Positions 19,346 through 30,888 of a DNA stretch of 37,465 bases are shown here, in pieces. Where the stretch lies: contig CALXDC010000029.1 of the NCBI GenBank assembly GCA_944386975.1, positions 1-37,465 of the forward strand. The letters are read 5' to 3'. Under the pieces are notes generated by a model. The model worked only from the letters and a program-made list of their open reading frames with translations, was not told where the DNA came from and did no database searches. Position 1 is the first letter of the stretch. Each line of letters starts with the position of its first letter. This stretch comes from an uncultured Oscillospiraceae bacterium. Lineage in GTDB: Bacteria > Bacillota > Clostridia > Oscillospirales > Oscillospiraceae. The position numbers and the translations under genes were made by a program.

Positions 19346-19915
19346 TTATAGCAGAACAGGCTGAAGTTGACAATTCTCCAGGGCAGCGCCGACAGTCTCC
19401 TCAATGCGGGAGAAGTCGGCCATCAACGACCGCGGCTTCTTCTCCGGGTCATCCTGACCAAAGGGGACAAAATAGTATCCCTTGCGGTTCAGAAGGGCGC
19501 CGATGGAGGCGGCGCTGGCACTGAGCCCGTCGTTGGTGGCCAGGGCCAGCACCACCGGACGATCATTGCGCAGATGGGCCTTGACGGCCATTGTGACGGC
19601 GGTATCGGTGATGCCGGCAGCCAGCTTGCCCAGAGTGTTGCCGGTGCAGGGCGCTACCACCAGCACATCCAGCAGCTTCCGGGGACCAATAGGCTCTGCC
19701 TCCGCCACCGTTGTCATGGGCCTATGGCCGGTCATCTCCTCCAGCTGCCGGATCAGGTCCCCGGCGGTTCCGAAGCGGGTGTCGGTGGCGGCGGCAGCTT
19801 CTGACAGAATGGGCAAAATCTCATATCGGGCGCAGAGCGCCTCCATCTGCTTTAGAACCTTGGCATGGGTACAGAACGAGCCGCACATGGCCCATCCGAT
19901 CCGTATATTTTTCAA
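19346..19915 (-). CDS. dpaB: Dipicolinate synthase subunit B
   Basis: 189-residue flavoprotein-like subunit of dipicolinate synthase (SpoVFB), which makes dipicolinic acid in the mother cell for export into the forespore. Family marks: IGWAMCGSFCTHAKV at the start, LDVLVVAPCTGNTLGKLA..ITDTAVTMAVKAHLRN in the middle, and YFVPFGQDDPEKKPRSL near the end. The start is TTG at 19915, overlapping the dpaA stop (TTGA), with a GGGGGGA SD upstream. It depends on transcription from dpaA, whose 5' half is 9.6 kb away in this arrangement, and a terminator (20471-20503) separates it from the element. So dpaB is probably silent until dpaA is rejoined. Confidence 0.95.
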   Translation of the reverse strand: MKNIRIGWAMCGSFCTHAKVLKQMEALCARYEILPILSEAAAATDTRFGTAGDLIRQLEEMTGHRPMTTVAEAEPIGPRKLLDVLVVAPCTGNTLGKLAAGITDTAVTMAVKAHLRNDRPVVLALATNDGLSASAASIGALLNRKGYYFVPFGQDDPEKKPRSLMADFSRIEETVGAALENCQLQPVLL

Positions 19916-20399
19916 ATGGGTTCCCCCCGTTCCTCTAAGATGTAACCGATGGCGTCCCGGACGGCCCTGGCAGCGGTGAGCGGGGCCACACGGCCGGGGA
20001 GGGCCAGCTCCTGAAGTGCAGCAATTCCCAGCTCCCGGGCGGCGGAAACATCCACGCCGCCCGGAGAAGAAGCCACATCAATGATCACGCAGTCCGGCCG
20101 GATTTCCTCCAGGCGCTTTCGGTCCAAAACCAGGGCGGGGACGGTATTGAAGATCAGATGGAAGGGCCGGAGGCGGCCCTCCAGCCGGTCGGTGCGCAGG
20201 GGCGCGTATCCCAGGGCTCGGATCCAGGCCAGATGCTCCTGCCGCCGGGCGGAGACGGCCACCTGGGCGGCCAGGCCCCGCAGACGGCAGGCCAGAAGCT
20301 TTCCGATGCGGCCAAAGCCGATGACCAGGCACCGGGACTCCTGGATGGTGCGGTCGGTGGCAGCCATAGCGGCGGCCAGGGCTCCCTCGGCAGTGGGGA
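19912..20399 (-). CDS. dpaA: Dipicolinate synthase subunit A, C-terminal half (interrupted gene, 3' part)
   Basis: This part codes for the C-terminal Rossmann domain of DpaA: PTAEGALAAAMAATDRTIQ, then the NAD(P) loop VIGFGRIGKLLACRL, NTVPALVLDRKRL, IIDVASSPGGVD and ALPGRVAPLTAA, ending at a TGA that overlaps dpaB. About 125 N-terminal residues expected in DpaA are absent here and found at 29977-30360. Homology stops exactly at the repeat GCAGTGGGGA (20390-20399). The open frame runs on to 20472, but that part (MPVPPCFHRFRRG...) belongs to the element and has no dpaA match. It carries no promoter. Frame and motifs are intact, unlike a decayed pseudogene. Confidence 0.92.
20390..20399 (+). repeat. 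Left attachment core of the dpaA element
   Basis: GCAGTGGGGA, identical and in the same orientation as 29981-29990. The matching bases stop sharply at both ends. The flank to the left is dpaA 3' coding sequence; the flank to the right belongs to the element. Confidence 0.8.
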
Positions 20400-20470
20400 G
20401 CGGTTTGGCGATGGGACCGGAGGCAGGCATCCATCCCCGTCGAAAGCGGTGAAAGCACGGCGGAACCGGC

Positions 20471-20503
20471 AAAAAAACAGCCAGACCCGATTGGGTCTGA
20501 CTG
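20471..20503 (-). terminator. Terminator of the adhesin gene, insulating dpaA 3' part
   Basis: Minus strand: 11-bp stem (20503-20493 with 20488-20478, one G-T pair) followed by T7 (plus-strand A run 20471-20477). It lies inside the element between the adhesin stop and the dpaA 3' part, so adhesin transcripts should not reach dpaB. Confidence 0.92.
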
Positions 20504-20552
20504 TTTTCGCTTAAGGGTTTGCCTTCGCATCTGCGTCGGCCGGGTCAGGGAC

Positions 20553-23500
20553 TCAGTCCTCCTCGCGCTTGCCGCTCTTGGTGCGGGTAAGCACCAGGCC
20601 GGCGGCAGCCATGGAGGCGGCCAGGGCCATGAAGCCCGCGGTAGCGAAGGGATTCACCGCCTCGGCGGCGCCGGTCTGAGGCAGATCGCCCAGGGGGGTC
20701 TCGGGATCAATGATCTCGGTGCCGTCGTCCATGGGGGTCTCGTTCTCGCCGATGTCGATCACATCGTCATCGGGGGCGGGATTCAGCGGAGTCTCTTCGT
20801 CGGGGAGCTCCTCGTCCGGCTCAGGATCAGGCGTCGGGGGAGTCCAGCCACCGCCGCCGCCACCGCCGGTGCCGGGATCGGTAGGCGTGGTGTACCGGTA
20901 CTCATAGGTCAGGGTAATGACATACTCGCCGGGCTCCGTCAAAGTCACGCCGACCTTGACCGTATCGCCATCCGTAAAGGTGGGACCGCCGCTGATGTAG
21001 TTATACTCGCTCTTGTTATCCGTGTTCTTGTAGGAATCGGTGTTCAGATCGGTGACCACCTGGCCCTTGCTGCCGCTGATCAGATCACCCTTCACCGTAT
21101 CAGTGGACTGCAGGACGCCGTCCACATAGTAGTTGTAGATACGGTCCACACGATACATGTACTCGTCGCGGGTGAGGTAGGTATTGATGATGTTGCCGTT
21201 TTCGTAGGTCACGGTGAAGTAATTATCACCATACTTGACCAGGGTCTGCTGAATGGCACCCTCGGCGTCCAGAGTGGTCACGCCGTAAGCGCCCACCTCG
21301 CGGACGGAGTACTCAATGGGCATATGGGTCTCGCTGTTGTAACGCTGCAGGCCGGTCCACTCATAGGCCCAGTTGTCCTCCGCGTCCACCGTCTTGATCT
21401 CGCCGGTGGCCACATCGTCGGCGTACAACTCCACCTGGATGGAAGCGGGAGCGTTCACATCGGCAGGCGCGCCGTCCAGAACCCACTGCTTCACGCCGGA
21501 GATAGAGGCGTCGTTGGTCTCGTTGACCGTGTTAGTGAAGATCATGGTATTGCCGGACTGCTGAGAGCTGGCAGTATAGGTGATGCCGTCAAGAGAGACG
21601 ATGCCGCTGGTCACCGCGAAGGTATCCTCTTCCAGGGTGAAGATCTCCTTGACCACGTAGTTGATCCGCTGGCCGTTGTCGTCATACTTGGGAACGGCGG
21701 CAAAGGTGCCGACCCAGACGTTCTCCGCGTTCAGCAGAGCCACCATATCCTGGCCGCTGATGGTCTGGATAGGATCAGCAGCGGTATTGCTCTCGTACAG
21801 GCCGAAGGAAACTGCGGTGCTGCTGGGACCGTTCCACACCTTGTTCACGGAGTAGACCACCTGGCTGCCGTCCACGTCACCCTCCATGGTGTTGGTGATG
21901 GTGCCGCTCAAAATGGTCACAGTATAGGTATTGTCGCCAAGGGTAATCTTTTCGCCGGACACGACGCCCTCGGTATCGCCTGCGTCGGCCATCTCACGGA
22001 CGGTATAAGCAATCGTCTTGTTGACGTCGCTGTACATGGGCTGATAGGGGAACTCACCGCTCCAATTGTTGGCCGCAGTCAGCTCCATGTGATCCTTGTA
22101 CACGCCGTCAGCGAACAGACCAACCCAGATGCTGTCGGGGCGGGTACCGCTGTTGCCGGGATCCTTCCACAGCTTGTTGACCTGAATATGGGTGGTTCCC
22201 GCGTCAAAGCTGTTGGTGAACTGATAGCTGACATTTACGCTCTCTGTGCGGGAGCTGTGGGTCATGGTATAACCGGCCGCCTTCTCCTCTTCCACGGTAT
22301 AGCGGATGGCATGACCGTCCAGATCCAGGCTCACGCTGGTGCCGTTGATGGTGGTGGTGCCGGGGATGGCATACCGGGGCAGGTTCTTAAAGGTATAGCC
22401 CCAGCTCTCCTCAGCGGTCAGGTTGTAGCTGCCGACCTTGATGTCATCGGCGTACAGGGTAACCTCCAGATCGGCGGGGACGGTGGCCGTGCCGTTGTCC
22501 CAGGTCTTCTGGACAGACACTTCCATGGTGTTATCCTGCTCAATGGTGTTGGTGATGTTCCACACGCCATTCTCCAGAACGGGCGCGCTGGGAGTATAGC
22601 CCGCAACAGGATCTTCCTTCACGGTGTAGTTGATCTTCTTCCCGTCGCTGCCGTACATGGGCAGATCGGTAAACTCATAGGTCCAGGGAGTTGTCTCCGT
22701 GCCGTCAAGGGTCTTAGAAGCTGCCTGCTGATCGCCGTTCATGACATAAACCGTTACAGACAGGCCCTCCGTGCTGGGAGCAACCCAATTCTTATGAACC
22801 GTGACGGAAGTAGTGGCGCTGCCGGTATTCAGGGAGTTGATCGCGGTGGTGTCTTCATAGCGCACAGCATACTTCACACCATCCTTGCCAGCCAGCAGGT
22901 TACCCTGCTCGCCCTCCTCCTTCACGGTGTACCGATACTCGTAACCAGCCTCATCGTAGACAGGCAGATTTTCGAAGGTGTAGGTCTGCGTGACCTCATA
23001 GACTTCCGTATCCTGAAGGAAGGTATAGGTGTGATTCGCGCTGTTGAAAGTATCATCCGCAGTACCATTGGAGCTGCGCTGGAGGATGAGCGTCACGCTG
23101 TCAGGCCGGGTGTCGTCAGCGTTCTTATCGTCCTCCCACTTCTTGGTGATGGTGACCTCATCGGTATCCGCGATATCCTCCCGGGTATTGGTCACGGTAT
23201 ACCCGTTGTCAGCGGTACCCTCGCTGGTCATGGCGTAACCGTCCACACTGTCCTTGACCGTGTATTCGATCTCATGGCCGTCGGCGGTCAGGCCCTCTGT
23301 CGTGCCGTAGGTCAGACTACCAACCTGAGTTTCGGGAATAGCGTACTTGGGAAGGCTGCTGCCAAAGTCGAAGGTCCAAGTAGTACCCGTCGCGGTGGCA
23401 GTCAGGCCGGTATCCTTGCCGTCGGCGTACAGATTGACCACAACGCTATCAGGGCGAATAGCTCCGGTGTTGTTGCCGTCCACCCACTCCTTGTGACCGC

Positions 23501-26033
23501 TGACGGTAACGCTGGTTTCCTGCGCAATGGTGTTGGTCACGGTATACCCGCTGGTGGAGACAACGTACTTCACACCGCCGATGTCATAGGCACCAGTGGA
23601 AACCCACTTCGTAACCATTGCGCCGTTCTCTTCAACGGTTACTTTCTCCATCACGCGGTAGTTGTAAGGATCACCATTATCGTCATACAACTCAACTGAG
23701 GGGAAAGTATGAGAGAGGTTGTTCTCAGACAGCTCAACGGTCAAGCCAGCAGCCGGCGTGGTCTCTCCCATAGCAACCAGGCCCAGCGTAACAGAGGGAT
23801 GATTTTCACCACCCACCCATGTCTTGGTCACGGTAATATCATCCTGCCCGCTGCGGACATTGGTCACTGTACATGTATAAGTTCCACTTTCCTCGTCGTA
23901 GTTAACCTTAAATGCCTGACTGCTGGGTGTGCTCCCGCTGGGATGATCCGTTTCCTTCACGGTATACGAATCTGTCAGAGAAAGGCCAGTGTCCTCATCC
24001 ACAGTGGGAATAGCAATGGTCACTGTCCAATTGTTGCTGGAAGAAATCTGTATATTCTGCTTAACTAAATCCTCGCCACAGTACAGATCCACAGTAACGG
24101 AGCCGGTGGAGGGTGCAATTGTGGCAGGCAGCCACGCCTTGGTGATCGTGAGGTCCCGATTTTCAGGATTGTGCTTGTTGGTGATGACCATACCGTCGAT
24201 GTTAACGGGTTCGCCGTTCTTGGTCACCGCCGCTACACCATAGACAACAGAGACCTCATAGGTATCTTCCAGGGGCTGATAACCGTCGTGCTCCGTCTCT
24301 CTCAGGGTATAAGTGTGTCCGGAGGGAATCCCCTTGCCCTGATTAGCAGCGAAGGAAACCTTGCCGGCCACAGCGGTTGCCGGCCCAACGGTAAGGCCGC
24401 AATCCTTACAAGTCAATGTAAACTGCACGCCGTTAATAGCATTCTCTGCGGGGTCCTCTTTGTCAAAGGTCAGGTCGACCCGATAGCCCTTGACCTGAGG
24501 CTTGGTAAATTCGCTGGTATAAAGCTTCTGCTCTCCTGCGTAATGCTGCACACCGTTCTGGTCAGTGAAGTCCTCCTCATACAAATCATCCTCAAAGGAA
24601 TAGGTCAGCGTGGCGACCTGGTTCGTGTCATACGCACTACCATCACGGGCGCCATTGTCCAGGGTCACATAATACTGGCAGGTGTAAACATACCATTCGC
24701 CCTCTTTTTTGTCGTAAGCAGCTAGGCTCTTCAGGTTCCAGGTAAGCTGCTTTCCAGTTCCATCCATCTTAGCGCCGGCCTGCTTGCCACTCACAAAGCC
24801 GGCAAAGGTAACATCCTGGCCCATGGTATCAGACACAATCCAGGCGTTGGTCTTGACCGTAATGTTGGTCTCAATAATTTCAAAAGCCTTGTTCAGCTGC
24901 TCTGCCAGCTCAGTACCAGAACCTGCTTCACAATTGATGTAGTGACTCTCATAGCCGCCCTCGTCGCTGGTAACGCTGTTGTACATGGTATATTTAGCGG
25001 CTGCACTGTTCTGAAGGCTGATGCCCACGCCGTAAATCTCAATTCCAGCATTTTTCAGCAAAAGGGCCTCAGAAACCGTGTTATAGGCATGATTTTTCCC
25101 CGTGCTGCTGCCGGTGCCTTTAATATCACTATAGTCAAATCTGGTATAAATGTAGTCCTGCTGGTAGGTGGTCTCATAGTATCCCCGCCCGTCATACTCA
25201 TCTACAGCTATAAACTGGCTCTTATCCACGTTCGTTTGCCATCCCGAGCCGTCATAATAATACGTCGGCTCGCCATCAGAGAGGAGCAGCACATACTTAT
25301 ATTCCGCACTGGAACCACTCAGGATATCCCGGGCTTTCTTGAGACCAGCCTGAATGTTGGTACCTGTATTATAGAGATTTTTGATATTGTTGATGGCGCC
25401 GCCTTCATATGCATTTTCAGTAGCAGGCACCCAGACCTGCTTTTCCTCATAATGCCCAGGAATCCAGTACCAATCTTCCCAATGGCCCTCTACCCAGACC
25501 CACTCAGTCTTCCACTCGCCCTCTTTCGGCTTTCCCCGAAGGCCTTCCAAATCATAGCTGAGCTCGCTCTTGGTATCGGCGGTTTTTCCATAGGTCACCA
25601 CCGCCACCTTACGGTTGCCGTCGGGCTCATCACCCAGGAAGGAGTTTATAAACTGCGTAGCCGCCTGCTTGGCAGAATCCAATCGGTCACCATTATTCAT
25701 GCTGCTGGAGTTATCAATGACCAGCACTACATCAATGGTGGGGGCAACCTCTGTGGTGGTCTGTTTGATTTCATCTTTGGTTTTGACCTGCAGCGTCATC
25801 AGAAACTTTCCTTCTTCTTCGGTAAGCTCCGCTGTCTTGGTCATCTGAACGTTGCCTTTTCCATCTTCCGGCAAAATAGTCCCACCAGAAGACACAATCT
25901 GATTATTTCTGTTCTGCTGCTGTTCCGCCGTAAGGCCACCCTGCGCGAACACGCCGACGGGCAGCGTGCTCAGGCACATGATCAGTGCCAGCAGCATGGC
26001 TAAAAATCGTTTGCTTCTTGTTGCCAACATCAT
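20553..26033 (-). CDS. LPXTG-anchored VWA/Cna-B repeat adhesin
   Basis: 1826-residue cell-wall protein. Signal peptide (1-30, ending GVFA), VWA domain (about 95-400) with MIDAS DNSSS, an aromatic insert (about 170-210, with repeated W-V/W-E/W-I-P-G-H-type segments), one SpaA-like domain near VDLTFDKEDPAENAINGVQF, about nine Cna-B repeats that each start like ITxxKxW (for example ITVTKTWVGG, VTITKKWEDD, ISGVKQWVLDG), a YxYRVDRIYNYYVDG domain, a Pro/Asp/Glu-rich stalk, then LPQTG (1784-1788), a hydrophobic helix and KREED tail for sortase. Likely an adhesin or pilin-like protein. GGAG lies 5 nt before the ATG. A c-di-GMP-I riboswitch-like aptamer precedes it. No sortase gene is in the element. 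Confidence 0.93.
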   Translation of the reverse strand: MMLATRSKRFLAMLLALIMCLSTLPVGVFAQGGLTAEQQQNRNNQIVSSGGTILPEDGKGNVQMTKTAELTEEEGKFLMTLQVKTKDEIKQTTTEVAPTIDVVLVIDNSSSMNNGDRLDSAKQAATQFINSFLGDEPDGNRKVAVVTYGKTADTKSELSYDLEGLRGKPKEGEWKTEWVWVEGHWEDWYWIPGHYEEKQVWVPATENAYEGGAINNIKNLYNTGTNIQAGLKKARDILSGSSAEYKYVLLLSDGEPTYYYDGSGWQTNVDKSQFIAVDEYDGRGYYETTYQQDYIYTRFDYSDIKGTGSSTGKNHAYNTVSEALLLKNAGIEIYGVGISLQNSAAAKYTMYNSVTSDEGGYESHYINCEAGSGTELAEQLNKAFEIIETNITVKTNAWIVSDTMGQDVTFAGFVSGKQAGAKMDGTGKQLTWNLKSLAAYDKKEGEWYVYTCQYYVTLDNGARDGSAYDTNQVATLTYSFEDDLYEEDFTDQNGVQHYAGEQKLYTSEFTKPQVKGYRVDLTFDKEDPAENAINGVQFTLTCKDCGLTVGPATAVAGKVSFAANQGKGIPSGHTYTLRETEHDGYQPLEDTYEVSVVYGVAAVTKNGEPVNIDGMVITNKHNPENRDLTITKAWLPATIAPSTGSVTVDLYCGEDLVKQNIQISSSNNWTVTIAIPTVDEDTGLSLTDSYTVKETDHPSGSTPSSQAFKVNYDEESGTYTCTVTNVRSGQDDITVTKTWVGGENHPSVTLGLVAMGETTPAAGLTVELSENNLSHTFPSVELYDDNGDPYNYRVMEKVTVEENGAMVTKWVSTGAYDIGGVKYVVSTSGYTVTNTIAQETSVTVSGHKEWVDGNNTGAIRPDSVVVNLYADGKDTGLTATATGTTWTFDFGSSLPKYAIPETQVGSLTYGTTEGLTADGHEIEYTVKDSVDGYAMTSEGTADNGYTVTNTREDIADTDEVTITKKWEDDKNADDTRPDSVTLILQRSSNGTADDTFNSANHTYTFLQDTEVYEVTQTYTFENLPVYDEAGYEYRYTVKEEGEQGNLLAGKDGVKYAVRYEDTTAINSLNTGSATTSVTVHKNWVAPSTEGLSVTVYVMNGDQQAASKTLDGTETTPWTYEFTDLPMYGSDGKKINYTVKEDPVAGYTPSAPVLENGVWNITNTIEQDNTMEVSVQKTWDNGTATVPADLEVTLYADDIKVGSYNLTAEESWGYTFKNLPRYAIPGTTTINGTSVSLDLDGHAIRYTVEEEKAAGYTMTHSSRTESVNVSYQFTNSFDAGTTHIQVNKLWKDPGNSGTRPDSIWVGLFADGVYKDHMELTAANNWSGEFPYQPMYSDVNKTIAYTVREMADAGDTEGVVSGEKITLGDNTYTVTILSGTITNTMEGDVDGSQVVYSVNKVWNGPSSTAVSFGLYESNTAADPIQTISGQDMVALLNAENVWVGTFAAVPKYDDNGQRINYVVKEIFTLEEDTFAVTSGIVSLDGITYTASSQQSGNTMIFTNTVNETNDASISGVKQWVLDGAPADVNAPASIQVELYADDVATGEIKTVDAEDNWAYEWTGLQRYNSETHMPIEYSVREVGAYGVTTLDAEGAIQQTLVKYGDNYFTVTYENGNIINTYLTRDEYMYRVDRIYNYYVDGVLQSTDTVKGDLISGSKGQVVTDLNTDSYKNTDNKSEYNYISGGPTFTDGDTVKVGVTLTEPGEYVITLTYEYRYTTPTDPGTGGGGGGGWTPPTPDPEPDEELPDEETPLNPAPDDDVIDIGENETPMDDGTEIIDPETPLGDLPQTGAAEAVNPFATAGFMALAASMAAAGLVLTRTKSGKREED

Positions 26034-26065
26034 TCATTCTCCTTTTTCTAAAAAATGTAGAATGG

Positions 26066-26156
26066 ATTCTGTGGCGGCCGGACTGGCCTGGCGTTTCCGC
26101 TGTAGCCTCCTGAGCTTTGCGTCCCGGGGTTTCCCCTCGGTTTGCCCTGTTTCACA
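26066..26156 (-). promoter_or_regulatory. c-di-GMP-I (GEMM-I) riboswitch before the adhesin
   Basis: The minus strand carries the GEMM-I core: ACAGGGCAAACC, a GAGGGGAAACCCC tetraloop-type hairpin, GGGACGCAAAGC, then GGCTA, a second hairpin and GCCAGGCC..GTCCGGCC, closed by TGTG/CACA pairing. The binding-pocket sequence AGGGCAAACC matches the c-di-GMP class. Downstream, CATTCT can pair with AGAATG, which lies within GGAGAATGA in front of the adhesin start, so control could be by SD masking; on or off cannot be told from sequence. Confidence 0.85.
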
Positions 26157-26210
26157 ATGCTTCGCGGGACCTCCGTCCCGCCGGGTCTCGACATCCTCCG
26201 ACGCCCTGGG

Positions 26211-26387
26211 TCACGTTCCCTCCTCCTTCTCTTCCTCTTCCTCCCGGGGAAGGGAGCTGTCGATGAGCCGGAGCAGCTCCAACGCGCTGCGAAAGGGTTC
26301 CTGCCGCTTCCCTTCTGCCCAGGTCACCGTGCCCTGCCAGGTGGCATTCTCCGTGCTTCGGACCTGGACTACGAAGGTCTCTCTCAT
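26211..26387 (-). CDS. Small protein in the adhesin leader (58 aa)
   Basis: ORF of 58 residues between the promoter and the riboswitch. It starts with ATG at 26387, has AAGGAGGG 5 nt upstream, and reads RETFVVQVRSTENATWQGTV, then FRSALELLRLID and an acidic tail. It is a small cytosolic-looking alpha/beta protein with no known function to me. Similar short ORFs (with ENATWQG..TW and FRSALEL..LID) seem familiar near Cna-B surface proteins in this bacterial group, but that is recollection, not a search. The second adhesin leader lacks this ORF. Confidence 0.65.
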   Translation of the reverse strand: MRETFVVQVRSTENATWQGTVTWAEGKRQEPFRSALELLRLIDSSLPREEEEEKEEGT

Positions 26388-26421
26388 CCTCTCCCTCCTT
26401 CCTCTCGCTTGTTATGGTCTA

Positions 26422-26443
26422 AGTATACACTGTAAGAGTTACT
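26422..26443 (-). promoter_or_regulatory. Putative adhesin promoter
   Basis: Minus strand: -10-like TATACT (26427-26422) preceded by GTG and, 10 nt further upstream, AGTAAC (26443-26438). The same AGTAAC-N7-GTG-TATACT layout with equal spacing occurs at 28161-28182 before the second adhesin. No standard -35 is seen, so an activator or another sigma factor may be used. Confidence 0.5.
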
Positions 26444-26701
26444 TTTTGGTTACACCGGGAAAATGGATATTTTGCGTATTGAAAGCCTGCCCTTTCAACT
26501 TATATATTTGTCTTATTTTTTTATTGAAATCTAAAATTTTTTTGATATATTAATAAGATTAATTTTACGCTCCACTGTTTTTTCTTTTTAATTTTTTGAA
26601 TATTATTTCATTAACTTCAATGATTATAGATTTTTATTCACTTCTACCGTTACATTTTCTACGGAGAAGTTACTTTTCCCGCCTCCTGTTTTATTATTTT
26701 T
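26444..26701. other. AT-rich stretch without a gene
   Basis: Very AT-rich (long T and A runs) in contrast to the GC-rich surroundings; no ORF with an SD on either strand. It contains GTTAC repeats (about 26652 and 26666) like those of the adhesin promoters, so it may hold remains of a promoter. Otherwise nothing seen. Confidence 0.5.
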
Positions 26702-27999
26702 TTAAAAAGAAACCGCTCTGTCACTTTTCGTTCCCGTGCAAAAAAGCGGCCGGACCACATAAGTCTTCCCATTGATGGTGGCGCCGTCCTTGTAGTACGT
26801 CACCACAAAGTCGTAGCTGCCGCTGCCGTCGCCGCCGAAGCCGTAGGAGGTCTCGCTGATGGCATACTTCTCCAGCGCCACGCCGTCTACAGTGAGGGTC
26901 AGCTTCTCCATGTCGTTGACAAAATCGAAGTGGTATTCCAGTTGTTGGCCACGTGCAGCTGCGCCACAGATTCGCCGTCCTCATTGATCCACACACGGGC
27001 AGCGCCGTCGGAGAGGATAATCATATACTTATTCTCAGCAGCCACGTTGGGATCTCCATTCAGGATCTCCCGGGCAGCCTCCACACCGGCCTGCAGGTTG
27101 CTGCCGGAGCGAAGCTTGTAGGAATCGGTTTCATCCTTCATATCGTTGTAATCTGTGGTCAGAACATCATCTCGCAGCGTCTCAATTGTCGTGCTGTCGA
27201 GGACAGTCAATTCAGTGGTAGAGAGAACCGGCTCATAGCCGCCGAAGATAACAACTCCTACCTTCACCGTCAGATTATGATAGCCAGCGAGAGTATTCAG
27301 AAGTCCCGCAGCTGTCTTTGTCAAATCCACCTTATCACTGCTGGTGGAGCCGTCCAGAACAAACACCACGTCCAGGTCGTCCTGATAGTCCGCCGCCGGA
27401 AGAGACAGCGTCACCTTGGACTCAAAGTTCTCATCCAGCCCGGCGGCTTCCTTGGACTTGGACAGCTCCCACTCCACAGCCTCGGGAGGCTCCACAGGGG
27501 TAGGCTCCTGGGGCTGCCCAGGCTCCTGAGAATCGCTCCCCTCCCCAGGGGTATAGACGCCGTAATCCAGGTGGCTGATCTTATCAAGAGCAGAAATGGT
27601 GACCGTACCGGCGCTAAAGTCAACAGAATATTCGCCGAGGTTCCCCTCGCCCTGGTAGGACGCCGCACCGTTCTCATCCGCGGCGAAGAATAACCAGGTG
27701 TCAACCCCGTTGTTCAGGGAGGCATCCTCTTCCGCAGCCAGCTCTTTCAGCTCACTCTGCCCGTCCTCGCTCAGATTGTCGCGCAGGAAAACCACGGCGG
27801 TGGTCGCCTGCTTCACAATGACAAAATTGGTGTCCGCTTCAATGGTGTACGTAAGATCGGACAAGTTCTCAACCTTATGAAAGTCATCCACCGTTCCTTT
27901 GTCCGCTGCGGCCGTACCCACGGCCATGGTGCCCATGCTCATAATCAGCGCAAGGAGCATGGCTAATATGCGTTTCCCTTTGTTACCAACATCATACAT
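26702..27999 (-). pseudogene. Broken second VWA surface protein
   Basis: Starts at ATG 27999 (GGAG upstream) with a signal peptide nearly like the first adhesin (ILAMLLALIMSMGTMAVGTAAA) and a VWA domain (VVFVLDGSTSS as MIDAS). At about 26935 the frame is lost: one frame ends at 26899, and a second frame (26702-26911) goes on with FDFVNDMEKLTLTVDGVALEKYAISETSYGFGGDG. The end is cut off after INGKTY, with no Cna-B repeats and no LPXTG. So frameshift or internal deletion plus truncation. If translated, it would give a secreted VWA fragment without wall anchor. Confidence 0.85.
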
Positions 28000-28021
28000 T
28001 CTCCTTCTTCTATAGAATGGA

Positions 28022-28112
28022 CTCTGTGGCGGCCGGACCGGCCTGGCGTTTTCGCTATAGCCTCCGAGCTTTGCGTCCCGGGGTTTCCCCTCGGTCTGCC
28101 CTGTTTCACACC
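28022..28112 (-). promoter_or_regulatory. Second c-di-GMP-I riboswitch copy (before the broken adhesin)
   Basis: About 90% identical by eye to the aptamer at 26066-26156 in the same strand and layout. One change falls in the highly conserved core: GGGCAGACC in place of GGGCAAACC. There is also a one-base shortening in the CTCAGGAGG segment. It may have weakened ligand binding, in step with decay of the gene it serves. Confidence 0.8.
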
Positions 28113-28160
28113 GTCTTTCCACCGGTCGTCTGCCGGTGACATCTCGCTTGTTACGGTCAC

Positions 28161-28182
28161 AGTATACACTCGCTCGGTTACT
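28161..28182 (-). promoter_or_regulatory. Putative promoter of the broken adhesin
   Basis: TATACT (28166-28161) with AGTAAC (28182-28177) at the same spacing as the promoter at 26422-26443. The leader from here to the aptamer is only about 50 nt and lacks the small ORF. Confidence 0.45.
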
Positions 28183-28398
28183 TTCAATAAATGTATATTA
28201 CCTCAAACGTATCAAAATATATGGAAAATTCCTATTAATTCTTAAAATTTTAGATATTATCTCACAATATTTGTATGATAAAAATTTTTTATCCTGTATT
28301 CTTCGCTAATATCGCCCGGATTATATTCGCATATTATGCTTATAATATACCTTTTTCCTGTTATACAGGTTACTGTTCCTTTCTTTCAAAGCATCCTT
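28183..28398. other. AT-rich stretch without a gene
   Basis: Low-GC sequence between the recombinase stop and the second adhesin promoter. No ORF with an SD; no clear terminator. Nothing else seen. Confidence 0.5.
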
Positions 28399-29907
28399 TC
28401 AGCTAATATGAAACTTTTTTGTCACCTCTTCCGACAGGCGGCAGGATAGCACCTCCCCGCGGCTGCCCGCCCCGGTTCCCAGAACCCGCGCCTCCAGCCG
28501 CAGCACCCCGGACAGTTCCCGCAGCCGCACCAAAAAAGCTCCCGGCACCGCGGTGATCTCCTCCACCGCCTCCGCCAGCGCAATTTTCTCCAGCGCCGCC
28601 TCTGCGGCCTTTGCAGCATCCGGGTCTGCCGGTTCTCTCCGGTCGGACACAGGCGGGCAGCGGCAGTCCGCCGTCGTCCGCTCCAGCTCCTCCAGGGACA
28701 AGCGTCCCTCCAGATACGCCTCCACCGCCCGGCGGCGGCGTTCCTCCTGCCGCGCCAAGGCCCGCTGCCGCATCAGCGGATCCCGGGCCGGTTCTCCCAG
28801 GGCTGCCGCCAGAATCCGCTCCCGGCTGAGGGGCAGGCAGTCCACCGCATACCGGGCGCAGGCCAGAATCACCGCCCCGTTGATTCCCGGCAGCGTGCAT
28901 CCGTCCCGCCTGCCCCGGCAGACAAAACGGACATAGGCCGTTCCGTCGGCCCGCCGGGTGCTCTTGGCCGCCAGACTACGGCCGCAGAGCCCGCAGCGGA
29001 GCTTGCCGGAGTACCAGTGTCCCCCGGCGTGGCGGCGGCCCTCCGCGCCCAGCCCCGCCCGGCGGCGCAGCTCCGCCTGCACCGCCAAAAATGTCTCACG
29101 GCTGACAACCGGCGGATGGTGGGCCGTCAGGCAGACCCGCTCCTCCTCCCCCCGGTTGACCGCCCGGTGGTGCGTAAGATAGTCCGTGGTGCGGGACTTT
29201 TTCTGCACCAGGTCCCCGCAGTATTTCTCATTGTGGAGGATGGCCAGCACCGTCTGAGACGTCCAGGCTTGCCGGGGCGGGGAAATTTCCGCCGTTGTCA
29301 GCCTGCGGGCGATGGTCCCCGCCCCCAGCCCTTCCTCCAGGCACATCCGGTAAATCTCCTCCACCACCTCCGCCTGATGGAGCTGAAGGACCAGGCGCCC
29401 CGACCGGAGCGCGTAGCCATAGGGCGCCTCTCCGAACACCACCCCCCGCCGCATGGCCTGGAGCTGCCCCCACCGGGTCCTCTGGGAAATCTTCCGGCTC
29501 TCCTCCTGGGCCACGCTGGCCATAATGGCAAGGCGGAACTCCCCGTCGCTGTCCCGGGTGTCGATGCCGTCGGTGAGGAACACCACTCCCACCCCCCGCC
29601 GCCGCAGGCGGCGGGTAATTTCCAGGGCGTCCACCGTATTGCGGGCAAACCGGGACACCTCCTTCGTGACAATGAGGTCAATTCCGCCCCACAGCGCCCG
29701 CTCCACCATCTCCATAAACCGGGGCCGCCGGTCCGCCGCCGTGCCGGACAGCCCCTCATCAGCGTAGATGCCCTCCAGCCGCCACCCCTCCCGGCCCTCG
29801 ATGTACTCCTCAAAAAATCGCCGCTGGGCCTCCAGCGAGTGGAGCTGATCCTCCTTGTCCGTGGACACTCTGCAGTAGGCCGCCACCAGCAGGCCGCTCT
29901 CCCCCAT
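28399..29907 (-). CDS. Large serine recombinase of the dpaA element (SpoIVCA-like)
   Basis: 502-residue site-specific recombinase. Resolvase catalytic domain with AAYCRVSTDKEDQLHSLEAQ (nucleophile S15), FARNTVDALE and the arginine-rich active-site region; recombinase domain (about 150-260) with EAPYGYALRSG and LAILHNEKYCGDLVQKK; zinc ribbon LRCGLCGRSL...CRGRRDGC; C-terminal coiled-coil region. Size and order match SpoIVCA of the B. subtilis skin element. The ATG at 29907 has GGAGGG 8 nt upstream. It begins only 74 bp from the right attachment repeat and is read in the same direction as the dpaA 5' part, so the dpaA promoter could also drive it. No excisionase-like gene is seen. Confidence 0.95.
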   Translation of the reverse strand: MGESGLLVAAYCRVSTDKEDQLHSLEAQRRFFEEYIEGREGWRLEGIYADEGLSGTAADRRPRFMEMVERALWGGIDLIVTKEVSRFARNTVDALEITRRLRRRGVGVVFLTDGIDTRDSDGEFRLAIMASVAQEESRKISQRTRWGQLQAMRRGVVFGEAPYGYALRSGRLVLQLHQAEVVEEIYRMCLEEGLGAGTIARRLTTAEISPPRQAWTSQTVLAILHNEKYCGDLVQKKSRTTDYLTHHRAVNRGEEERVCLTAHHPPVVSRETFLAVQAELRRRAGLGAEGRRHAGGHWYSGKLRCGLCGRSLAAKSTRRADGTAYVRFVCRGRRDGCTLPGINGAVILACARYAVDCLPLSRERILAAALGEPARDPLMRQRALARQEERRRRAVEAYLEGRLSLEELERTTADCRCPPVSDRREPADPDAAKAAEAALEKIALAEAVEEITAVPGAFLVRLRELSGVLRLEARVLGTGAGSRGEVLSCRLSEEVTKKFHIS

Positions 29908-29976
29908 TGTCTCTTCCCTCCCCATCTGCCGGATATCATAATAAAGGTAAGGAATCCTATGCGCCGGTCCCTTGGG

Positions 29977-30360
29977 CTATGCAGTGGGGACTGCATTGGC
30001 CACCTGCAGCTCCTCCCGGAGAAAATAGTCCAACAGCTCCACTCCCGCCGTCCGGGCGGACCGCTCCACAGCCGGATCCACCCGACCGCCCAGCACCACC
30101 CGACCGCCGCCGCTCACCAGCGGCCACAGCTCCTCCAGCCGGAGTTCTCCCCGGCAGAGGTTCAGATGCACCCCGTCCCGGCTCACCGGCTGAGGCAGCA
30201 CCACGATCTCGCCGGAGGCTGCCTCAGCCAGCGGTGGTTCCGCCTCCGGCGGCGCCAGCCCCCAGGTATGTACGCGGTGCCCCTCCTCCCGGAACAGCTC
30301 CGCCAGATACAACTGCCGGGGATCGCCCCCCAGCACAGACACGCTTCGCTTCACTTCCAT
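29977..30360 (-). CDS. dpaA: Dipicolinate synthase subunit A, N-terminal half (interrupted gene, 5' part)
   Basis: 127 codons coding the N-terminal domain of DpaA: VSVLGGDPRQLYLAELFREEGH (compare the VIGGDARQ start of B. subtilis DpaA), LPQPVSRDGVHLN, ELWPLVSGGGRVVLGG and ending LLDYFLREELQVANAVPTA, after which the element supplies a TAG stop. The rest of the protein is at 19912-20399, continuing VPTA-EGALAAAM. The ATG at 30360 lies right after GGGAGGG; a GTG at 30354 has better SD spacing. Both halves are open and in phase, so the gene is interrupted, not decayed. Confidence 0.92.
   Translation of the reverse strand: MEVKRSVSVLGGDPRQLYLAELFREEGHRVHTWGLAPPEAEPPLAEAASGEIVVLPQPVSRDGVHLNLCRGELRLEELWPLVSGGGRVVLGGRVDPAVERSARTAGVELLDYFLREELQVANAVPTA
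29979..29996 (+). repeat. Right attachment site of the dpaA element, with dyad
   Basis: The repeat core GCAGTGGGGA (29981-29990) lies inside a perfect inverted repeat ATGCAGT-GGGG-ACTGCAT (29979-29996). The dyad centre (GG) is a natural crossover dinucleotide for a serine recombinase; it is not self-complementary, so it would set direction. Confidence 0.7.
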
Positions 30361-30373
30361 CCCTCCCTTAGCC

Positions 30374-30402
30374 CATAGTATGGCGTGCCGCCGCCGCTGG
30401 TG
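30374..30402 (-). promoter_or_regulatory. Possible mother-cell (SigK/SigE-like) promoter of dpaA
   Basis: Minus strand: CACC (30402-30399), 16-nt spacer and CATACTATG (30382-30374), close to the SigK form mACm-N16-CATAnnnTA; CATACTAT also resembles a SigE -10. It lies only 13 nt before the ATG, so the leader would be unusually short. A GC-rich match of this kind could be chance. Confidence 0.35.
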
Positions 30403-30428
30403 CAGGGGAAACGGGAGCATCCTTTCTG

Positions 30429-30472
30429 TTGACAAGTGTAGACTCTCCTGCTACAATATGTTTACAGATGTC
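30429..30472 (+). promoter_or_regulatory. blaI promoter with BlaI-type operators
   Basis: -35 TTGACA (30429-30434), 17-nt spacer, -10 TACAAT (30452-30457). BlaI/MecI-like ACA..TGT dyads overlap it: ACAAGTGTA (30432-30440), TACAATATGT (30452-30461) and TACAGATGT (30463-30471). This suggests BlaI represses its own operon. It is divergent from dpaA. Confidence 0.75.
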
Positions 30473-30495
30473 ATCACAAGGGAGGGGGAACGGGC

Positions 30496-30888
30496 ATGAC
30501 CGAGGACGGCATCCGTCTGACACAGGCGGAGTGGAGCGTGATGGAGTACTTGTGGGATGAGGGACCCCGGACAGGCCGGGAGATAACGGAGCGGATGGCC
30601 CGGCGCTGCGGGTGGAGCCGGAGCACCACCCTCACCCTGCTGGGCCGTCTGGAGGCCAAGGGAGCGGTGAAGAGCGCCCCTGCGGAGCGGGGGCCCAAGG
30701 TATTTTCGCCTCTTCTGCAGAGGGAGGCCGCCGCCCTGCGGGAGACAGAGGATTTTCTCAGCCGGGTATATCAGGGGAGTCTGAGTCTGATGGTCAGCGC
30801 TCTGACCAGGAAGCAGGCGCTGCCCCGGGAGGAATTGGATCAGCTCTACGCGCTGCTGAAGGGATTGGAGGAAGAGGGACATGATTGA
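30496..30888 (+). CDS. blaI: BlaI/MecI/CopY family repressor
   Basis: 130-residue winged-helix repressor: LTQAEWSVMEYLWDEGPRTGREI, STTLTLLGRLEAKGAV and KVFSPLL, followed by a helical dimerization tail. Length is usual. In the bla/mec systems a BlaR1 sensor protease causes BlaI removal on beta-lactam binding. Here the neighbouring blaR1 (8-nt overlap) is broken, so BlaI may be a constitutive repressor or answer to another signal. AGGGAGGGGGAA precedes the ATG. Confidence 0.9.
   Translation: MTEDGIRLTQAEWSVMEYLWDEGPRTGREITERMARRCGWSRSTTLTLLGRLEAKGAVKSAPAERGPKVFSPLLQREAAALRETEDFLSRVYQGSLSLMVSALTRKQALPREELDQLYALLKGLEEEGHD

Follow-up and report, generated by a model that had tools for sequence, protein, structure and literature searches.

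How can dpaA, which encodes a subunit of dipicolinate synthase, be expressed when it is cut in two by almost ten kilobases of intervening DNA? This question is raised by the 37,465-nucleotide stretch analysed here (the window), which is the forward strand of one entire contig, CALXDC010000029.1, in the 96-contig, 90%-complete genome of an uncultured Oscillospiraceae bacterium (GCA_944386975.1). On its minus strand the window holds, in this order, the N-terminal half of dpaA, a 9,591-bp insert, the C-terminal half of dpaA, and dpaB. We consider it probable that the insert is a non-prophage, skin-like gene-intervening element that is excised in the mother cell, which would restore the dpaA-dpaB operon.

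The N-terminal half (29977..30435, minus strand; Pfam DpaA_N, E 4.4e-17) starts from an ATG at 30360 and reads to ..VANAVPTA, after which a stop derived from the element closes the frame. The C-terminal half (19912..20399, minus strand) reads from ..PTAEGALAAAM to ..GEPI. Its open frame, 19912-20472(-), has a Pfam match to the 2-hydroxyacid dehydrogenase NAD-binding family (E 3.8e-6), and its stop is overlapped by an intact dpaB (19346..19915, minus strand; Pfam Flavoprotein, E 2.2e-27). The break in DpaA, at ..NAVPT/AEGA, separates the DpaA_N domain from the NAD-binding half as delimited by Pfam, and is called site 1 below. The initial annotation had described a 9.6-kb element splitting dpaA, a stretch common to both ends in the same orientation and codon phase, and two halves with neither internal stops nor frameshifts, whose recombination would give a continuous 285-codon dpaA overlapping dpaB. 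Each of these points was borne out. Scripted joining of the flanks gives a stop-to-stop frame of 315 codons with no internal stop, or 285 codons from the ATG at 30360, and the join is free of gaps: the joined protein is 78.6% identical to that of an uninterrupted congener over 299 residues. A second intact dpaA, which by the initial annotation would refute its view, was not found; the search of the assembly gave a single DpaA_N match, and another dpaA may lie in the missing part of the genome.

The 10-bp core common to both ends, TCCCCACTGC, is found on the minus strand at 29981..29990 (the left attachment site, attL) and at 20390..20399 (the right one, attR), in identical orientation and codon phase. 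The crossover dinucleotide would be CC, at 29988-29987 and 20397-20396 respectively, and the intervening element then occupies 20397..29987 (minus strand), 9,591 bp from core to core. attL and attR agree letter for letter over 10 bp in the window and over only ~4 bp in genome G054. We joined the element ends (attP) for nine site-1 elements, and in 9/9 the best dyad falls at one point, between the two C of the proline codon, with 11-21 of 25 pairs matching versus ~6.5 in mononucleotide shuffles. The window dyad (14/25) is matched or beaten by 14 of 20,000 such shuffles, and the weakest one, that of G054, is reached by 592 of 20,000. The codons on the element side of attL are variable (PTA, PNA, PVA, PIS), and attR in the inspected loci reads PT, then A, C or S, then EGA (one base is ambiguous in L083), a pattern that is expected if the crossover takes place at CC. 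Judging from the letters alone, the predicted attachment sites are dyad-symmetric around a 2-bp crossover, as for large serine recombinases. Given the attP dyad and the 17 further genomes whose dpaA diverges at this codon, the interruption of dpaA is more than chance.

The element carries its own recombinase. A large serine recombinase gene (28399..29907, minus strand) starts 78 nt inside attL in the direction of dpaA; its frame is intact and encodes 502 amino acids (aa) from the ATG at 29907, or 508 aa from the ATG at 29925. The assignment is based on the Pfam domains Resolvase, Recombinase and Zn_ribbon_recom, the combination that defines large serine recombinases, as well as on an alignment and a tree. 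The serine motif YCRVST is invariant in 14/14 aligned recombinases from dpaA elements, and YokA/SprA of SPbeta is the solved relative that matches the recombinase profile over most of its length (positions 51-480 of 523). An interrupted spore gene, a frame-restoring core and its own recombinase are three features that the insert shares with sporulation gene-intervening elements of the skin/vfbin/gin type. The initial annotation was silent on the serine recombinase, on the recurrence of the interruption in other genomes and on a second site in dpaA.

To see how the gene looks in relatives, we searched 99 related genomes, 73 of which have a DpaA match. As the initial annotation had supposed for related genomes, all ten congeners searched have a long dpaA frame (286-365 aa, full length on inspection); some other genera have short frames. 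A DpaA_N search in 400 genomes of the family gave a match in 271, and among 150 listed places those with short frames were fetched. Interruptions are present in at least 18 of these 150 places: 16 are hit at site 1, four of them also at site 2 (described below), and two at site 2 only. This count is a minimum, as the listed places include 20 whose frame is below ~275 aa, and 19 of these were fetched; G150, at a contig edge, was not fetched, and G198, with Ns in its sequence, was set aside. Divergence at site 1 (..VPT/A) is seen in 18 genomes of 11 genera including the window, which like G039 stands outside the 150 listed places. As a control, spoIVA was matched in 135 of 150 genomes of at least 90% completeness and is split without an adjoining contig end in 3/135 by eye (G056, G212 and G254), to be read against a dpaA set that is unfiltered for completeness and has 11 of its 18 interrupted places in genomes at least 90% complete. 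The spoIVA pieces lie on separate contigs in G212 (C129/C7) and G254 (C105/C56), where spoIVA may be a further interrupted spore gene. That the window is one complete contig from a 96-contig genome resembling a metagenome bin would suit an assembly artefact; the same break is found in the single-contig genome G206, the six-contig G179 and the named strain assemblies L080 and L109, and we regard an artefact as next to impossible.

Site 2 lies after DLASKPGG (DLASKPGG/VD). G246 (L060) and G306 (L058) diverge there only, with 4-5 kb of flank examined for the remaining C-terminal piece. Both sites are broken in G206, G179, G197 and G433, where dpaA is in three pieces, the last of only ~46-50 residues; in G206 they are spread over ~78 kb. 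For 10 of the 18 genomes the C half was found within one contiguous stretch of fetched DNA, and in 10/10 the joining produces a full-length DpaA with no internal stops and 52-85% identity to the best intact relative (five joins gap-free, five with 1-6 gaps), four of them needing two excisions. The initial annotation had proposed inactivated halves in relatives as a sign against its view, and none appear in these testable genomes. The site-1 joins were made at the CCx/ACx codon pair, and the site-2 joins were placed by the conserved PGG/VD motif and not by a long common core. The elements are 2.7-44.5 kb in size. One could also imagine that the pieces function as separate polypeptides, a split enzyme, since site 1 lies at a domain border. 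We find this hardly credible, because the N halves end in unrelated element-encoded tails of varying length, and because the last piece in the four three-piece genomes is so short.

The halves themselves look constrained, judging from pairwise ratios of nonsynonymous to synonymous substitution rates (dN/dS, NG86). Over all pairs, dN/dS is 0.10-0.59 for the N half (15 of 16 defined) and 0.089-0.39 for the C half (10 of 11 defined). The window against the uninterrupted congener L011 gives 0.36 (N) and 0.089 (C), and the uninterrupted pair L011-L012 gives 0.28 and 0.17. For G136 and G259, both interrupted and with recombinases 78% identical, the N-half value is 0.105 at dS 0.37. An alternative hypothesis could be that the insertion killed dpaA and that the host makes no DPA (dipicolinic acid, with which its spores are filled) or uses another route; no excision was seen, and the window element contains one decayed adhesin gene. 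We think this very unlikely, as the halves are open and constrained, the recombinase is intact, a related interruption is found in two species at the above N-half dS, and the window genome keeps its spoVA genes (two SpoVAC/AEB matches) along with spoIVA. The initial annotation had favoured a working, reversible interruption over decay, and it gains support from the intact recombinase, the dN/dS values well below 1 and the ten full-length joins.

The recombinases sort largely by target. We searched an alignment of 14 dpaA-element recombinases against named genomes and kept the best 80 of 561 confirmed relatives. A dpaA piece is present in 18 of these best 80 loci, with a further weak match (L149) left uncounted. 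Both dpaA halves are seen in Intestinibacillus massiliensis P3216 and Agathobaculum butyriciproducens DSM 100391, whereas for Flavonifractor sp. An10 and Butyricicoccus Q5471 the flank that was fetched shows the C half only. In a 94-row tree, made by a quick method with SH-aLRT support only and with L077 and L084 being the same genomes as G433 and G197, one clade of 28 rows is dpaA-linked throughout (28/28) and includes the window recombinase. Only 2 label changes are required for the 32 dpaA rows, versus 26.9 in shuffles. The six site-2 recombinases form a separate set, with 38-60% identity in the pairs compared and ~25-33% to the site-1 set.

A sister set is linked to another spore gene, cotJC (spore-coat Mn catalase, Pfam PF05067). 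A cotJC piece is in the locus for 54 of the 62 rows without dpaA, and CotJB for 34. Both cotJC halves, more than 2 kb apart, are seen in 18 loci; in the 13 two-half loci inspected, the break is around TDIG/TEEL, with an N piece that ends near DIG (DVG in one), a C piece that begins with GTEEL or GTEEM, and a common word of at least 6 bp at the break in 10/13. The loci with a cotJC piece include L094, L098, L101, L107, L120, L134 and 48 others. A cotJC break in the window genome itself was considered and rejected, its own cotJC being unbroken with a frame of 238 aa; seven other recombinase loci from this genome (~3-4 kb each) have no cotJC piece.

The cargo differs from one element to the next. 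In the window element a surface adhesin of 1,826 aa (20553..26033, minus strand) has a VWA domain, eight Cna_B stretches and, near the C terminus, LPQTG, which we take to be a sortase motif. A truncated, frameshifted VWA-domain surface protein (26899..27999, minus strand; start set after the riboswitch by inspection) is a decayed copy, whose remnant is readable in another frame. The c-di-GMP-I riboswitches (Rfam RF01051) at 26070..26156 (53.6 bits) and 28025..28110 (52.9 bits), both on the minus strand, stand ahead of the intact and the decayed adhesin, respectively, and hence the cargo looks regulated by cyclic di-GMP (c-di-GMP). A 58-aa open reading frame (ORF) at 26211..26387 (minus strand) has no assigned function. 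We scanned eight other elements for their large ORFs, 40 in total and chosen by size; 26 have Pfam families, which are metabolic, surface or regulatory. The smallest element (2.7 kb, G179) has a rubrerythrin gene, L055:18727-19272(-), the recombinase with its small ORF, and no other nameable ORF. The 4.6-kb element of G282 encodes a penicillin-binding transpeptidase and an FHA-FtsW/RodA protein (L050:14923-18079(+)), cell-wall genes that an excision would remove from the mother cell along with the element. The G054 element has two related recombinases, L043:5307-6905(-) and L043:9233-10861(+), each behind a small partner ORF.

We also considered a phage origin of the window element and rejected it. 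No phage gene, structural or for replication, was found by Pfam in its three large ORFs (small ORFs and PHROGs were not searched), the degenerate attP pattern has no match in viral_contigs, and a dpaA piece is in 0/80 of the viral loci retrieved by the recombinase alignment. Among the 40 cargo ORFs of the other elements no phage structural or mobilisation family is listed, 14 of them having no Pfam match.

How would dpaA be restored? We suggest that the recombinase at the dpaA-proximal end of the element would recombine attL with attR at the CC of the conserved proline codon, which would release a 9.6-kb circle and restore an uninterrupted dpaA-dpaB operon, on which DPA synthesis would depend. 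dpaA is read in the mother cell. Because the recombinase gene lies right behind the N half, and a simple scan of 29700-30600 showed no terminator-like site between the two (of three coding-strand hairpins, two are within the N half and one within the recombinase gene), it is probably the transcription of dpaA that provides the recombinase, at a late stage of sporulation. As the mother cell is terminal, the spore would keep the element. Ahead of dpaA stands a box, CACC-N16-CATACTAT (30375..30402, minus strand), which we liken to the sigmaK consensus. In the window and 23 uninterrupted loci, a box of the form nACn-N14..17-CATAnnnT was found ahead of dpaA in 14/24 versus 0.3 expected from mononucleotide shuffles; two further loci were dropped from the count for want of an anchor. 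As for directionality, many cotJC loci have an ORF of 50-65 aa whose end coincides, or nearly so, with the start of the recombinase gene; these ORFs form two clusters, of 22 and 11 members. A model built from the first of them detected seven such small ORFs in 6 of the 15 dpaA elements scanned, and two weak additional ones came from a model already including these seven. This small ORF may encode a directionality factor.

Several observations weigh against excision in the mother cell as we picture it. The C half was not found in 8/18 genomes, where six end at contig ends, G032 has none within ~38 kb and G057 none within ~58 kb. Relatives of the site-1 recombinase were not found in G039, G104 and G417, and one was found only weakly in G032. 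Four of the 32 dpaA-linked rows (L091, L055 and the two from L043) fall outside the clade of 28, on the cotJC side. The N-half value of the window is not below those of the uninterrupted pairs; its insertion is possibly recent, and thus its selection signal alone is weak. Only 3/18 interrupted loci, the window included, have the sigmaK-like box. Of the 14 mapped recombinase genes, only 6 follow the N half and share its direction, which means that read-through from dpaA cannot be a general mechanism. The box is also found in just 1/14 recombinase upstream regions with 0.34 expected, and the idea that the recombinase has its own sigmaK-like promoter is unsupported. The small ORF was not detected in the window element by the model searches, and we have dropped it as a universal directionality factor.

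The scarcity of such boxes ahead of recombinases would also suit another hypothesis, that dpaA is an integration hot spot for mobile elements whose excision is stochastic or stress-induced, with a working dpaA only in a subpopulation. Interrupted and long-frame dpaA occur within the same genus, e.g. g23, g107, g40 and g45, so insertion and loss appear to be frequent, and yin of C. botulinum was excised at all time points according to the available part of its report (PMC10747680). We nevertheless hold this to be unlikely. The two dpaA sites and cotJC are all in spore genes and the recombinases sort largely by site, which suggests selection for genes of a terminal cell, and the cargo ORFs with Pfam matches show nothing of mobilisation or phage structure. 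Mother-cell excision of a gene-intervening element remains our preferred reading of the window. We speculate further, at only slightly better than even chances, that Clostridia, many of them from animal guts, carry old target-dedicated serine-recombinase lineages in late sporulation genes (one at dpaA ..PT/A, one at dpaA ..PGG/VD and, as their sister, one in cotJC), and that some of these genes must undergo two excisions. Ordinary host genes such as those for adhesins, rubrerythrin and cell-wall proteins would be parked there as cargo that the mother cell discards and the spore retains, and the mother-cell chromosome would be a routinely rearranged 'soma'.

Elements of this kind are known. The accessible parts of four papers (PMC10747680, PMC5595907, PMC4191935, PMC5025042) name sigK, spsM, spoVFB (dpaB), spoVR, gerE and yabG as interrupted spore genes. 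The nearest case is vfbin in spoVFB (dpaB) of Bacillus weihenstephanensis, which likewise splits a dipicolinate synthase subunit gene and is described as excised in sporulation to rebuild dpaB (Abe 2013, as cited in PMC10747680 and PMC4191935). According to those accounts vfbin interrupts the other subunit, has phage-related genes and belongs to Bacilli, whereas we see dpaA with two fixed sites and no recognised phage gene, in Oscillospiraceae and Butyricicoccaceae. The skin element in sigK of B. subtilis and C. difficile shares the in-frame joining, and in B. subtilis its recombinase gene is just 3' of the 5' half in the same direction, as in the window (PMC10747680, in part); it differs in being prophage-like and in interrupting a sigma factor gene instead of a biosynthetic one. 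gin in gerE of B. cereus ATCC10987 is described as a non-prophage intervening element (PMC5595907, in part) and differs in gene and host group; it is likened here by description. SPbeta at spsM is excised by SprA in sporulation, which rebuilds a mother-cell gene, and SprA resembles the window recombinase over most of the profile; SPbeta is, however, an active prophage requiring the small SprB (PMC4191935, in part), and we found no SprB counterpart in the window. The yin element, in yabG of C. botulinum, has its recombinase directly behind the 5' half of the spore gene, as in the window, but is a prophage described as unique to one strain in the part of PMC10747680 at hand, unlike the many genomes here. 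The kind is thus already known from vfbin, and dpaA, its two sites and the dedicated recombinases appear to be new. Literature searches on dpaA with a serine recombinase, spoVFA interrupted by a prophage and a cotJC intervening element found none, which is weak evidence as subscription papers are mostly outside the coverage.

As far as the accessible parts of the same four papers go, excisable spore-gene elements have been described one at a time, from Bacilli and a small number of clostridia. In our data a single gene is interrupted at two fixed codons, sometimes twice per genome, by recombinases that sort largely by site; site 1 alone spans 11 genera in a sample of one family, as well as named strains of Butyricicoccaceae, and a sister recombinase set lies beside cotJC. 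Many naturally paired recombinases and attachment sites are on offer. Sporulation-gene surveys may score dpaA and cotJC as missing or broken, and, if excision is true, programmed rearrangement of the mother-cell chromosome would be common in these commensals.

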